Shown: one piece after another, positions 1-7,776 of the stretch
How the letters are laid out: every line of letters begins with the position of its first letter
Position numbering within the stretch: position 1 is the stretch's first letter
Source: Candidatus Acetothermia bacterium
GTDB lineage: Bacteria > Bipolaricaulota > Bipolaricaulia > Bipolaricaulales > Bipolaricaulaceae
Length of the DNA stretch: 43,340 bases
Reading direction: 5' to 3'
NCBI GenBank assembly: GCA_024653305.1
Contig: JANLFW010000011.1
Coordinates: 1,950-45,289, forward strand
Program-made: the position numbers and the translations under genes
Notes under the pieces: model-generated
What the model saw: the letters and a program-made list of their open reading frames with translations, nothing else
Told to the model about the DNA's origin: nothing
Databases searched by the model: none

Positions 1-1035
1 GCCCTGCGCGTGGTGCGGACGCCGGCCGAGGTGTTGCCTATGGCCCTCGCCTACTTGCGCATCGAGTGCCTAGGGCTCCCGATGATGTTCGGCACGTTCG
101 CGTTCACCGGGCTCCTCCTTGGGGTCGGGGACACCCGAACCCCGATGTACCTCATGGGCACCTCCGTTCTCGCCAATGCCATGTTGGACCCGTTCTTCAT
201 CTTTGGGTGGGGGCCGTTCCCCGCGCTTGGGGTGGCCGGAGCGGCCATCGCCACCGTGCTTTCCCGCGGGCTGGCGGCCCTGGTCGGGCTGTGGCTCCTC
301 ACCACAGGGAGGGTGGGACTCCGGCTGCGGCGGGACCGGCTCCTGCCCCGCTCTGCCCGGGTGCGCGAGATCGGGCGCGTGGGGATCCCCAACGTCCTCG
401 ATCAAGCGGGCACTTCGTTTGGGTTCGTGATCCTGATGGCCCTCGTGGCCGGGTTTGGGACCACCGTGGTCGCTGCGTACGGTGTAGGGAACCGGCTCAT
501 CAACCTGCTCAACGTGGCGATCTGGGGAGCGACGAGCGCCTTGGTGGCGATGGTGGGGCAGAACCTGGGCGCCGAGCAGACGGCGCGGGCGGAGGAGATC
601 GCGCGGCGGGGCGTCCGGGCCACGTTCCTCGTCCTGGGGGGTCTATCCCTCCTGACGTTCCTCGTTCGGGAGCCGCTGTACCGGGTGTTCATCGCCGATC
701 CGGCGGTGATCGAAGAGGGGGCACGGTTCCTGGCCATCTTCGGGTTCTCGGTGCCGTTCTTCGGCCTGTTCGCCGCCGCGGGCGCCGTGTTCCGGGGATC
801 TGGGCACACCGTGCCCCCGATGGTGTTCTCCCTGATCCGGCTGTGGGGTCTGCGCATCGGGATGTCCTGGCTCCTCGCCTACCTTTGGGGCTTGGGACCG
901 ACCGGCTTGTGGATGGGCATGGCCCTCAGCAACGCGGCGGCCGGGGTGGGGCTCCTCGCGTGGCTCCGCCGCGGGACTTGGAAGCGCAAGGTGATCACGG
1001 CCCCCGCCGCGGTGGAACGAGGCGCCACCCCTTGA
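1..1035 (+). CDS. MATE family efflux transporter, 5' end cut by window edge
   Basis: Inner-membrane MATE (multidrug and toxic compound extrusion) antiporter, probably exporting organic cations or drugs with Na+ or H+ influx. The frame is open from base 1, so the GTG at 10 is not the true start. Alignment by eye with the complete paralogue at 12329 puts the first visible residues near its residue 135, so roughly 130 residues are missing. Shared landmarks are the GLP segment, a DP-x-F-I-x-GWGP loop, and a late RGSGH motif followed by RLW-x-LRI. Repeated hydrophobic stretches indicate about nine remaining membrane segments. The stop codon lies inside the TTGACA of the next promoter. Substrate cannot be told from sequence. 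Confidence 0.9.
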   Translation, partial: ALRVVRTPAEVLPMALAYLRIECLGLPMMFGTFAFTGLLLGVGDTRTPMYLMGTSVLANAMLDPFFIFGWGPFPALGVAGAAIATVLSRGLAALVGLWLLTTGRVGLRLRRDRLLPRSARVREIGRVGIPNVLDQAGTSFGFVILMALVAGFGTTVVAAYGVGNRLINLLNVAIWGATSALVAMVGQNLGAEQTARAEEIARRGVRATFLVLGGLSLLTFLVREPLYRVFIADPAVIEEGARFLAIFGFSVPFFGLFAAAGAVFRGSGHTVPPMVFSLIRLWGLRIGMSWLLAYLWGLGPTGLWMGMALSNAAAGVGLLAWLRRGTWKRKVITAPAAVERGATP

Positions 1036-1061
1036 CAGGGAGCCCCGGATCGGCGTATATA
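1032..1061 (+). promoter_or_regulatory. Promoter, TTGACA-18-TATATA
   Basis: A perfect -35 box TTGACA (1032-1037) is followed after 18 bases by TATATA (1056-1061), predicting a start near 1068-1069. It directly precedes the structured leader RNA and the ABC importer operon. The -35 box contains the stop codon of the upstream MATE gene. This is the only near-consensus two-box promoter I found in the window. Confidence 0.75.
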
Positions 1062-1068
1062 TAGGTGC

Positions 1069-1202
1069 GATGTGCAAGCTCGTTCTAGCGGAGGAGGTGA
1101 TCGCCGGGAAGCCTAGCTTCTGCGGGTACTGGTTCGCATAGGGGCGTGACCTCTCGCTGAGAGGGAGCGCCCGTTCACCGCAAGCTCAGCTTGCGGGTTT
1201 TT
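1069..1202 (+). ncRNA. Structured 5' leader with terminator switch, candidate riboswitch or attenuator
   Basis: Between the promoter and the binding-protein gene lies about 130 nt with dense pairing. GCAAGCT (1074-1080) can pair with AGCTTGC (1188-1194), closing a large domain. Inside it are GGTGA (1096-1100) with TCACC (1175-1179); GAAGC-CTA-GCTTC (1108-1120); and GGGCG (1142-1146) with CGCCC (1168-1172), extended by CCTCTC-GCT-GAGAGG (1150-1164) across a symmetric TGA/GAG loop suited to tandem G-A pairs. The closing helix uses the 3' arm of the terminator at 1178-1196, so the two are mutually exclusive. That is the expected layout of an ON switch by antitermination. It does not match the class consensus motifs I know (TPP, SAM, glycine, ykkC/guanidine, T-box). 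The ligand is unknown. Confidence 0.55.
1178..1202 (+). terminator. Rho-independent terminator inside the leader
   Basis: CCGCAAGC (1178-1185), loop TCA, GCTTGCGG (1189-1196), then G and five T (1198-1202): an 8-bp perfect stem with a T tract. It lies 24 bases before the ATG of the downstream gene, so it can only act as an attenuator for that gene. Its 3' arm can alternatively pair with 1074-1080. Confidence 0.8.
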
Positions 1203-1225
1203 ATTTGCCCGAAGGGGAGGTAGAC

Positions 1226-2194
1226 ATGCGAAAGCTTGTATTAGCCGCAGTGCTAGCAGCTTTTGGACTCCTCAGTCTGGGCCGGCCGATCGTGATCGGC
1301 ATCACCCAGATCGTGGACCACCCCGCCCTGAACGCGGTGCGCGATGGGGTGATCGCGACCCTGCGCGAGGCGGGCTACGTGGACGGACAGAACGTGCGGT
1401 TCATCCTGGGCAACGCCCAAGGGGACTTCTCGGTGGCCATCGCCATCGCCCAGAACTTCCTCGCCCAAGGGGTGGACCTCGTGGTGTCCATCGCTACCCC
1501 CACTTCCCAGGCCGCCGTTCAGGTGTTCAAGGACACCGGGATCCCCGTGGTGTTCTCGGCGGTGACGGACCCGGTGGGGGCTGGTCTCACCGGTTATCCC
1601 AATGTGACCGGGCTTTCTGACCTGATCGATGTTCGGGCGGACCTAATGCTCCTGCAGGAGTTGGTGCCTGGGGCCAAACGGGTGGGGATGGTGTACAACC
1701 CCGGGGAAGTGAACTCCGCGATCCTTACGGCGATGGCGGAGAAGGCGGCCCGGGAGTTGGGCCTCACCATCGTGGCTGCAGCCGCCGAGAACACGGCGGC
1801 CGTGCCCCTGGCCGCCCAGTCCCTCATCGGCCGGGTGGATGCCCTCTACGTGACCACCGACAACACCGTAGTTGCGGCATTGGAAGCAGTGGTAGATGTG
1901 GCGAACCGGGAGCGCCTCCCGTTCCTGGTGGCCGACCCCACGAGCCTGGAGCGGGGGGCCCTGATGTGCACGGGATTCGACTACTACGACCATGGCCTCA
2001 TGACCGGGGAAGTGGTGGCCAACGTCCTCGCTGGCGTTGCGCCCAAGGACATCCCCATCACCTACCAGAGGGGCACCCAGGTCTGGCTCAACTTGGACAT
2101 GGCCCAGCGGATCGGGTTTGCCTTCCCGACCTCGGTGGTGGGGAAGGCCACCGGGATCCTCCTCGGGGGCCGGCGGTTCGTAGCCGAGGAGTAG
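1226..2194 (+). CDS. ABC transporter substrate-binding protein, TrpX-like
   Basis: Periplasmic or lipid-anchored solute-binding protein of the ABC_sub_bind (TrpX-like, periplasmic-binding type 1) family, 322 aa. The start is ATG 1226, preceded by GGGGAGG at good spacing; an upstream in-frame TTG at 1205 lies in the terminator tail. The N-terminus is a signal peptide (MRKLV followed by a hydrophobic run to about residue 20). Family landmarks include GITQIVDHPALN near the start, VSIATPTSQA and the later VADPTSLERGA. It heads an operon with a permease and an ATPase. Family members have been linked to tryptophan or other small amino-acid-like solutes, but specificity is not predictable here. Expression is likely controlled by the preceding leader. 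Confidence 0.88.
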   Translation: MRKLVLAAVLAAFGLLSLGRPIVIGITQIVDHPALNAVRDGVIATLREAGYVDGQNVRFILGNAQGDFSVAIAIAQNFLAQGVDLVVSIATPTSQAAVQVFKDTGIPVVFSAVTDPVGAGLTGYPNVTGLSDLIDVRADLMLLQELVPGAKRVGMVYNPGEVNSAILTAMAEKAARELGLTIVAAAAENTAAVPLAAQSLIGRVDALYVTTDNTVVAALEAVVDVANRERLPFLVADPTSLERGALMCTGFDYYDHGLMTGEVVANVLAGVAPKDIPITYQRGTQVWLNLDMAQRIGFAFPTSVVGKATGILLGGRRFVAEE

Positions 2195-2204
2195 GAGCGC
2201 CAGG

Positions 2205-3092
2205 GTGACGCTGGTCCTTCCCGCGGTGGAGCAGGGGCTCATCTACGGCCTCATGGCCCTGGGGGTGTACCTTTCATTCCGAGTCCTCGCGTTCCCCGAT
2301 CTGTCCGTGGACGGGACGTTCCCCCTTGGGGCGGCGCTGGCCGCGGCCCTCATCACCGCGGGATGGGACCCGTTCCTGGCGAGCCTGGTGGCGCTGGGGG
2401 CCGGGGCCGCGGCCGGGGCCTTCACCGGGGTCCTCGCCACCAAGTTTCGCATCCAGGGGCTCCTCGCTGGTGTGCTCACCATGATCATGCTGTATTCCCT
2501 GAACCTGCGGATCATGGGGCGACCCAACCTCGCCCTCCTCGGCCGCCCCTCGGTCCTCCGCCTCGCCACCGGGGCGTTGGGGTTGCCCAACCCGTGGGGG
2601 TTGGTCGTCGTGGTTGCGATCTTGGCGTTGGCGCTGAAGTTCCTGTTGGACACGTTCTTCCACACCGAGCTGGGGATGGCCCTGCGGGCTACGGGGGACA
2701 ACCCGGATGTGGTGCGGGCGTACGGGGTGAGCCCGGAGGGGATGACGATCCTCGGGCTCGCCCTGTCCAACGCCCTGGTGGCCTTGGCCGGGGCCTTGGC
2801 CGCCCAGTACTCGGGGTTCGCCGACGTGGGGATGGGGGTGGGGACCATCGTGGCCGGGCTGGCCTCGGTGATCGTGGGGGAGATGCTCCTCCGTCCCCGG
2901 TCGGTGGGGTGGGCCACGGCCGCGGTCCTCCTCGGGTCGTGCCTGTACCGGGGGGCGATCCTCGTCGCCCTTCGGTACGGGGGGGCGCTGGGATTCACCC
3001 CCTCCGACCTCAGGCTCCTCACCGCCCTCGTGGTGCTGGGGGCCCTGATGGCCCCGGCCCTGCGGACCCGCATCAAGGGGGAGGAGGCATGA
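2205..3092 (+). CDS. ABC transporter permease, TrpY-like (branched-chain type)
   Basis: Integral membrane subunit (295 aa) of the importer whose binding protein lies just upstream; it belongs to the BPD_transp_2 group used with TrpX-like proteins. The GTG start follows the upstream stop by 10 bases. The sequence is a series of hydrophobic helices with a GDNPDVVRAYG stretch about two thirds in, characteristic of this permease group's cytoplasmic ATPase-coupling loop. Its last codons overlap the ATPase start by 4 bases (ATGA), indicating translational coupling. There is a single permease gene, so the transporter should be a homodimer in the membrane. Confidence 0.88.
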   Translation: MTLVLPAVEQGLIYGLMALGVYLSFRVLAFPDLSVDGTFPLGAALAAALITAGWDPFLASLVALGAGAAAGAFTGVLATKFRIQGLLAGVLTMIMLYSLNLRIMGRPNLALLGRPSVLRLATGALGLPNPWGLVVVVAILALALKFLLDTFFHTELGMALRATGDNPDVVRAYGVSPEGMTILGLALSNALVALAGALAAQYSGFADVGMGVGTIVAGLASVIVGEMLLRPRSVGWATAAVLLGSCLYRGAILVALRYGGALGFTPSDLRLLTALVVLGALMAPALRTRIKGEEA

Positions 3093-3883
3093 TCCTGGAA
3101 CTGCAGGGGATTTCCAAGACGTTCGCCGTGGGGGCAGAGCGGGTGGAGGCGCTGGCAGGGGTGGACCTGGCCCTGGAGGCCGGGGAGTTCGTGACCGTGA
3201 TTGGCTCCAACGGGGCCGGGAAATCCACGCTGCTTAACGTGATCGCCGGCACATGCCGTCCGGCCCGAGGTCGGGTGCGGATCGCCGGGGTGGACGTGAC
3301 CCGGTGGCCAGCCCACCGCCGGGCCCGCTGGATCGGACGGGTGTTCCAAGACCCCCTGCGGGGCACGGCCGCCCACATGACGGTGGCGGAGAACCTTGCC
3401 CTGGCCCAGCGCAAGGGGCGGCGGGGGCTGGGGCTCCCCCTCACCCAGGCCCGCCGGCGGGCCTTGGCCGCGGCGGTGGCCCACCTCGGGATGGGGCTGG
3501 AAGGGCGCCTGACCGAGCGGGTGGCCCACCTCTCTGGGGGGGAGCGCCAGGCCCTCACCGTCCTCATGGCCACCCTGTCCGGACCGAAGATCCTCCTCCT
3601 CGACGAGCACACGGCGGCTTTGGACCCGGCCAATGCCGACCGGGTGCTCGCCATCACCGCGCGGCTCGTGCGGGAGAAGGGCATCGCCACCCTCATGGTC
3701 ACCCACCGCATGGACCAGGCCCTCCAGGTGGGGGACCGCCTCATCATGATGCACAAGGGGCGGATCGTCCTGGACCTGGGGGCGTCCCAGAAAACCAGCC
3801 TTGGCGTGGAGGACCTCGTGGCCCTGTTCAAGCGGGCCGGGGTCACGGACGACGAGCTCCTCCTCGAGGCCCCCGTGCGCTAG
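3089..3883 (+). CDS. ABC transporter ATP-binding protein
   Basis: Cytoplasmic ATPase (264 aa) powering the importer. The start is ATG 3089 in the overlap with the permease stop, preceded by GGGGGAGGAGG. Walker A GSNGAGKST is at residues 39-47, Q-loop VFQD near 89, signature LSGGE near 148-152, Walker B ILLLDEH near 170-175, and the switch histidine in THRMDQ near 204. Walker B is followed by the TAALDP D-loop. Length and motif spacing are standard for a single-domain ABC ATPase. It completes a three-gene importer. Confidence 0.92.
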   Translation: MILELQGISKTFAVGAERVEALAGVDLALEAGEFVTVIGSNGAGKSTLLNVIAGTCRPARGRVRIAGVDVTRWPAHRRARWIGRVFQDPLRGTAAHMTVAENLALAQRKGRRGLGLPLTQARRRALAAAVAHLGMGLEGRLTERVAHLSGGERQALTVLMATLSGPKILLLDEHTAALDPANADRVLAITARLVREKGIATLMVTHRMDQALQVGDRLIMMHKGRIVLDLGASQKTSLGVEDLVALFKRAGVTDDELLLEAPVR

Positions 3884-6833: not shown

Positions 6834-7483
6834 CCGTTGCCACTCCCCTTCTTCCTGACCCGATCGGCTCGATCAACGACTACGGCCAGACCCTGGAGCG
6901 GGCGGAGCGGGAGCGGCTGAAGGAGATCATCGCCGCCCTCGAGGGTCATGGGCTCGCTCTCGTGTACTTGGCGAGCTGGCGCGATCCGTTCGGGAACCCC
7001 AGTGTCTACGCCCATGAGGTGTTCCGGGCGTGGCGCCTTCCCCCGGAGGCGGTGCTGGTGGTGCTCCTCCGGGTCGAGGGGGTGGGGTGGCGAGCGGTCG
7101 CCCAGCTCGGGGCCAAGGCCCAGGGGGCGATCCCGGCTGGGCCGTGGGAGGCCCTCCTCGACCGCGCGGAGGTGGAGGCCAACCGCGGGCGGACGGCCTC
7201 GGCCGTGCTCAAGTTGGCCCAGGGGCTCCTGGAACTCGTCACCACAGGCCCGAAGGACGAGGGGAGGACGCTGGGGGTATGGCCGTACGTGATCGTCGGT
7301 GTGGGCGGCGCAGCTGGGGCCGTGTTCTTCATCGCCCGACGGGTCTGCCCGCGGTGCTTGCGACCGCTGCGCCGCCGGGAGTCATTGGGCGGTATAATGT
7401 GGGTGTGCCCCCGTTGTCGATGCACGAGGGCACCCGCGCGGTGGGGGAGACGGCCAGGGGGCCGCGGGGGTGTTTACCCCTGA
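6791..7483 (+). CDS. TPM-domain membrane protein with C-terminal zinc ribbon, probable CTG start
   Basis: Secreted or membrane-anchored protein of the TPM (YgcG/Psb32/MOLO-1) family. The best start is CTG 6791: GGGAGG lies 7 bases upstream and the product begins M/L-RKLLAVPVLAVALTVA, an excellent signal peptide. In-frame GTG codons (6719, 6728) would add a Pro/Gly-rich tail before it, and GTG 6824 would remove the signal. The TPM domain spans about residues 20-150 (INDYGQTLE, LALVYLASW, VLVVLLRVEG). A membrane segment (VWPYVIVGVGG) follows, then two CPRC motifs. The last 43 bases, including the stop, lie inside the RNase P RNA gene, so the C-terminal dozen residues are encoded by rnpB sequence. 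Confidence 0.75.
   Translation: MRKLLAVPVLAVALTVATPLLPDPIGSINDYGQTLERAERERLKEIIAALEGHGLALVYLASWRDPFGNPSVYAHEVFRAWRLPPEAVLVVLLRVEGVGWRAVAQLGAKAQGAIPAGPWEALLDRAEVEANRGRTASAVLKLAQGLLELVTTGPKDEGRTLGVWPYVIVGVGGAAGAVFFIARRVCPRCLRPLRRRESLGGIMWVCPRCRCTRAPARWGRRPGGRGGVYP
7393..7398 (+). promoter_or_regulatory. -10 box TATAAT upstream of rnpB
   Basis: Consensus TATAAT 42 bases before the P1 helix of RNase P RNA, inside the TPM gene. No good -35 box is seen at 16-18 bases. The predicted transcript would start near 7405 and carry a short hairpin (GGGTGTGCCC at 7401-7410 with GGGCACCC at 7428-7435) before the mature RNA. Confidence 0.5.
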
Positions 7484-7776
7484 GGAAGGTCCGGACTCCG
7501 CCGGGCAGGCCGCTCGGGGCAACCCGAGAGGGGGCGACCCCTGGAAAGTGCCACAGAGAACAGACCGCCAGCGGCCCACACGGGTGCGGGCAAGGGTGAA
7601 ACGGTGGGGCAAGAGCCCACCGCCGGGGCCGCGAGGCTCCCGGGCACGGTAAACCCCGGCCGGAGCAAGGCCAAATAGGGAGGCGGTTGAGGGTGGCCCG
7701 CCCGATGCCTCCGGGTAGGCCGCATAGATGGATGGCCCCCCTCGACAGAATCCGGCCTATGGCCCTCTCCCCCAGC
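7441..7776 (+). ncRNA. rnpB: RNase P RNA, bacterial type A
   Basis: Catalytic RNA of RNase P, which trims the 5' leader of tRNA precursors. All conserved core blocks are present in order: GAGGAAGGTCCGGACTCC near 7483, CAGAGAACAGACCGCC near 7552, GGGTGAAACGGTG near 7594 followed by GCAAGAGCCCACCG, CACGGTAAACCCC near 7645, and GACAGAATCCGGCCTAT near 7744. P1 can be drawn as GGGGGAGA (7443-7450) with TCTCCCCC (7766-7773), which fixes the ends. The GGTAA loop that recognises tRNA CCA is present. Its 5' 43 bases overlap the TPM gene; YugP-like follows. No T-rich terminator is evident. Confidence 0.95.

Follow-up and report, generated by a model that had tools for sequence, protein, structure and literature searches.

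A probable leader-peptide attenuator upstream of a TrpX-like importer in Bipolaricaulota

The structured leader ahead of a putative aromatic amino-acid importer in a Bipolaricaulota (Acetothermia) genome is very probably a transcription attenuator, which would read the supply of charged tRNA through translation of a leader peptide. Judged from its homologues, what is conserved in the 5' half of this leader is no aptamer but a coding sequence that closes with aromatic codons; covariation supports two independent hairpins downstream of it rather than a switch helix. By sequence comparison the arrangement is trp-attenuator-like, but our search did not turn up the mutually exclusive antiterminator characteristic of the classical type. 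The analysed stretch of DNA, here called the window, is 43,340 nucleotides long. Its relevant features follow each other in the order promoter, leader ORF, hairpin H1, hairpin H2, ribosome site, trpX, permease and ATPase (Table 1).

Table 1. Positions in the window of the leader elements and the importer genes
Feature	Position	Strand	Detail	Basis
Promoter	1033-1038, 1057-1062	+	TTGACA, 18-bp spacer, TATATA	sequence
Leader-peptide ORF	1070-1141	+	MCKLVLAEEVIAGKPSFCGYWFA, then stop TAG (1139-1141); predicted to be essentially leaderless	ORF and homologue comparison
Shine-Dalgarno-like motif within the ORF	1090-1102	+	GGAGGAGGTGATC	complementary to 16S 3' tail
Candidate sensor codons	1127-1138	+	Tyr-Trp-Phe-Ala, immediately 5' of the stop	synonymous variation
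Hairpin H1	1142-1172	+	pairs 1142-1147:1167-1172 and 1150-1155:1159-1164	covariation, swap test
H2, intrinsic terminator	1178-1202	+	CCGCAAGC (1178-1185)-TCA-GCTTGCGG (1189-1196)-G-TTTTT (1198-1202); stem 1178-1185:1189-1196	covariation, swap test
trpX-like substrate-binding protein gene	1226-2194	+		PF04392 E 6e-73; matches 3lkv, 6hni, 3lft
Permease gene	2205-3092	+		PF02653 E 3e-29
ATPase gene	3089-3883	+		PF00005 E 2e-28

The leader ORF and the importer genes

The original prediction had described, from the letters of the window, a near-consensus promoter, a structured leader with a terminator and an ABC importer downstream, and these elements are all borne out by our analysis. What it lacked is the ORF of 23 codons, encoding a peptide of 23 residues, which starts about 8 nt past the -10 box and occupies the 5' half of the structured leader. 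The -35 and -10 boxes are likewise present ahead of nearly all relatives' leaders. As the distance from the -10 box to the start codon is mostly 4-12 nt, the mRNA 5' end is expected at the ATG or within a few bases of it, and the leader mRNA should be essentially leaderless.

A DNA search in 60 relatives and a covariance model run across 100 genomes of the class returned 26 strong copies, every one within the bacterium's own family, and protein matches in public genomes assigned these to Bipolaricaulota or Acetothermia. Of 40 family genomes searched with the TrpX protein, 24 contained full-length trpX loci, 25 in total, and comparison of positions showed the leader in front of all 25. The 26th copy is the sole strong trp-type leader that does not precede trpX; it lies ahead of a trpB-like gene in genome G010, where a second leader copy sits between the trpB-like gene and trpX. 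At locus L021, two aromatic leaders lie about 1.5 kb apart in one genome (1960-2100, ahead of a trpB-like gene; 3464-3591, between the trpB-like gene and trpX).

The leader ORFs of the relatives keep a length of 22-27 codons and end in Tyr-Trp-Phe, rarely Phe-Tyr-Phe. Tryptophan occurs within the last eight codons in all 25 distinct trp leader copies, and aromatic residues take up 5.1 of the eight final positions, compared to 5.6% of residues in neighbouring proteins (p ~1e-74, a statistic that ignores shared ancestry). The residues at the ORF end are kept while the codons vary synonymously (TAC/TAT, TTC/TTT, GCA/GCG), and the stop alternates between TAG and TGA.

The Shine-Dalgarno-like motif inside the ORF pairs with the 16S tail GGATCACCTCCTTT, observed in relatives, at -17 to -25.5 kcal/mol in all 38 leaders, some of which were found by a pattern that itself contained the motif. 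The bases RRGGRGGTGAT are retained although the residues they encode may be Lys, Arg, Glu or Gly, which places the constraint on the bases. No conserved start codon follows the motif in the sequences listed. Since it lies 30-45 nt 5' of the leader stop, a ribosome held there would sit just short of the sensor codons and leave H1 free. The motif is missing from the ilvD leaders described below, so that it probably serves for timing and is not itself the switch. These observations also bear on a nascent-peptide arrest that senses free tryptophan, as in TnaC, instead of codon starvation. A short, Trp-containing leader peptide would suit such an arrest, but the residues 10-14 before its end are chemically variable over constrained bases, Phe and Tyr are conserved besides Trp, and analogous leaders for branched-chain amino acids exist; we therefore regard arrest as very unlikely.

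By their domain matches, the three downstream genes are an ABC importer. The TrpX-like protein matches NF041285 (TrpX) with an E value of 2e-66 and 224 bits, which is under the curated cut-off of 390, and passes for PF04392; we infer that the substrate is tryptophan or aromatic amino acids. The TrpX of streptococci is a tryptophan uptake protein that is induced at low tryptophan and controlled by a T-box (PMC9382623). The window's genome, which is 95% complete, gave no match to TrpE, while several relatives gave clear matches; tryptophan import is therefore probably important for this bacterium. The start of the leader peptide, MCKLVLAEE (1070-1094), resembles that of TrpX, MRKLVLAAV (1226-1250), possibly through local duplication or by chance.

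Two hairpins and the search for an antiterminator

In the window, the first base of H1 directly follows the leader stop codon. Across all 40 leaders measured, 0-3 nt separate the stop from H1 and 0-7 nt separate H1 from H2, and H2 starts 29-45 nt past the stop (for the G031 ilvD leader, the downstream part alone entered the counts). All 11 modelled pairs of H1 have changed on both sides, and 0 of 500 shuffles were as good. For H2, 98% of cells are paired and 7 of 8 pairs covary. Taken together, both partners have changed in 18 of the 19 pairs, and none of 500 shuffles reached the observed values, in an alignment that was fitted to this very structure and has two partial rows. A swap test, in which the pairing of native segments is compared with that of segments exchanged between species, agrees: native exceeds swapped pairing for the H1 arms (z -5.7 to -9.6) and the H2 arms (z -4.4 to -8.9). 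The two hairpins share no bases. The original prediction was to be abandoned if homologues showed no covariation; H1 and the terminator covary strongly.

The swap test gave a strong signal solely for the H1 arms and the H2 arms, and no conserved antiterminator helix was found. The original prediction had placed its switch in the pairing of 1074-1080 with 1188-1194. This 7-bp match is literally there, but solely in the window genome (G000) and its sister G001 of the same genus, and over 17 representative trp leaders the 5' part of the ORF matched the 3' arm of the terminator no better in native than in swapped combinations (p 0.34). Nor did the proposed symmetric TGA/GAG loop with tandem G-A pairs hold up among relatives, as it is fully paired in G012 and a bulge in G003. 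Two further pairings, an antiterminator of 1114-1126 with 1178-1187 and the ORF motif with the bases immediately before the terminator, are found in some species and are not conserved.

A ligand-binding riboswitch, with a 5' aptamer domain and the 1074-1080:1188-1194 pairing breaking the terminator, would agree with the stable fold, the terminator and the transporter downstream. The transcript 1060-1225 does fold more stably than expected at random (-73 kcal/mol, z -2.65, 2 of 200 shuffles equally good), but this fold is built on coding sequence. The synonymous drift in the 5' half, the failure of the switch helix in the swap test, the variable H1 internal loop and the lack of a credible Rfam match all speak against such a riboswitch, and we consider it highly improbable. 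The original view that no known riboswitch class fits by eye is in line with our Rfam searches at gathering and relaxed thresholds, in which no known covariance model gave a credible match in the leader; a T-box match at gathering score was likewise absent from it. The sole above-threshold Rfam match in the window is a bacterial RNase P class A RNA at 7446-7774.

A classical four-segment attenuator is a sub-case of leader-peptide attenuation and overlaps with our preferred explanation. Its antiterminator could be species-variable, or a pseudoknot invisible to the pairing test, and the ORF motif with the H1 5' arm could be the protector (1:2) helix. The order of sensor codons, stop and hairpin is as in trpL, and the motif has strong complementarity to the 5' arm of H1 (mean -14 kcal/mol), with covariation that is weak at best (p 0.03 over all classes), for which reason this helix was set aside as a candidate. 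When a ribosome was placed in the folding simulations at the start, on the Shine-Dalgarno motif, over the sensor codons or at the stop, H2 still formed in most species, and in G012 some ribosome positions lowered the terminator probability. However, no segment pair but H1 and H2 pairs strongly in native over swapped combinations, these two have no bases in common, and neither the simulations nor the swap test revealed an antiterminator mutually exclusive with the terminator. We find the four-segment form unlikely, though clearly less so than a riboswitch or peptide arrest.

Proposed mechanism and relation to known attenuators

In leader-peptide attenuation as we propose it, scarcity of aromatic aminoacyl-tRNA would stall the ribosome at the Tyr-Trp-Phe codons, immediately upstream of H1, RNA polymerase would pass H2, and the importer would be made. 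With plentiful charged tRNA, the ORF would be completed, the ribosome would reach into H1 at the stop or leave, and transcription would end at H2. By slowing the ribosome shortly before it reaches the sensor codons, the Shine-Dalgarno-like motif probably keeps translation in step with the polymerase. The footprint of a ribosome on the mRNA extends about 10 nt past the A site (PMC4824070). A ribosome at Tyr20/Trp21 should therefore touch the start of H1 only, while one at the stop should melt its lower half, so that the place of the ribosome would decide H1 folding. Against this model stand the lack of a conserved antiterminator, the simulated H2, which persisted in most species wherever the ribosome was placed, and the absence of the Shine-Dalgarno-like motif from the ilvD leaders. 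We tentatively suggest, as a possibility that we do not favour strongly, that these leaders form a Bipolaricaulota family of leader-peptide attenuators which switch a terminator without an antiterminator helix, the ribosome at the first of two independent hairpins deciding termination at the second.

A direct steric block of the terminator is unlikely, because H2 begins past the 27-nt limit reported for pyrBI-type control, in which a coupled ribosome directly represses the terminator (limit in that study's system; PMC4824070). The leader shares with pyrBI a terminator that would be governed by ribosome position on a leader ORF, but differs in this longer distance. Stop readthrough or frameshifting, by which a ribosome would translate into the terminator and melt it, could draw on the frame after the stop, which remains free of stops across the terminator in 17 of the 18 trp leaders considered. 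This frame is closed in relative L041 and in several Liv, LivG and Opp leaders, and its register to the terminator is not conserved; readthrough thus seems most improbable.

Ribosome-mediated attenuation of the trpL type is known from E. coli trp and from Corynebacterium and Streptomyces trp (PMC1262725). The present leader resembles it in its short ORF with Trp codons just 5' of the stop, a post-stop hairpin, an intrinsic terminator between the ORF and the first gene, and tryptophan-related genes. It differs in the essentially leaderless ORF with an internal Shine-Dalgarno-like motif, in the lack of terminator/antiterminator overlap, and in that it precedes transporter rather than biosynthesis genes. 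The original call of an ON-type attenuator stands in so far as this is a regulated terminator leader of an ABC importer, but the sensor is very probably a coding sequence with an aromatic end, and the exclusive helix is not conserved. The ilvB-II motif of Corynebacterium was similarly a riboswitch candidate first and was later ascribed to a uORF (PMC10272879). It too drew attention as a structured RNA and proved to be an attenuator with a uORF and a pair of stem-loops, of which the second is the terminator, but there the P1 loop can pair with the terminator's right shoulder (PMC10272879), and no such overlap was found here. In the streptococcal trpXYZ T-box, a related binding protein is under tRNA-charging control via a terminator (PMC9382623), but the T-box binds tRNA directly.

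Leader peptides of Bipolaricaulota did not turn up in a limited literature search, and our results apparently offer an initial look at how amino acids are sensed in this almost uncultured phylum. The roughly 40 natural variants offer material for asking whether a terminator can be under ribosome control when it has no bases in common with a competing helix. They also call for caution, as structured leaders may conceal essentially leaderless uORFs, which standard gene callers can miss.

Leaders of the same layout before other genes

Weak covariance-model hits and a pattern search yielded further leaders of the same order, whose downstream LivK-, LivG- and SBP_bac_5-like genes were named from their sequences alone. 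Leaders before LivK-like genes end, for example, in TLVVVLM, TLVIFVLM or TVYLFLMV. Val, Ile, Leu and Met make up 29 of 56 positions in leader endings before LivK-like genes and 10 of 136 in trp leaders (p 4e-11). A model built from Liv leaders alone retrieves further Liv leaders as well as trp leaders (best E 4.8e-11). In three genomes, the biosynthetic gene ilvD is preceded by leaders ending in SVVLVLIS, SVIVLIS or SVILIS, each followed by two hairpins. As far as the sequences tell, the leader-peptide endings match the downstream product, and they may help to name the substrates of several importers.

The same layout before a biosynthetic gene argues that the ON state is starvation, and we infer the same direction for the importer. 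A search for leaderless uORFs ahead of trpE gave no convincing leader.

Individual loci show the layout as follows. L185, L184, L142, L152, L186, L188, L144, L203 and L205 carry leaderless uORFs with Val/Leu/Ile/Met/Phe-rich ends, a hairpin at the stop and a terminator before LivK-like genes. The ilvD leaders (L220/L230, SVIVLIS; L229, SVVLVLIS; L231, SVILIS) are leaderless uORFs with H1 and a terminator in tandem. LivG-like ATPase genes follow the layout at L192, L193, L223 and L225 (EEFFWFTG, QGLHWFMG, HYLFVMA and WYLLFVTW), and genes similar to SBP_bac_5-type (oligopeptide) binding proteins at L191 and L195 (EFFSLWF and RDSFSMRL). In another family (G088, L136/L153), a uORF encoding MVLTSSLEVRSSSSVLFVYFMMITIV up to its stop has its own upstream Shine-Dalgarno sequence and is followed by a hairpin and a terminator before a LivG-like gene.
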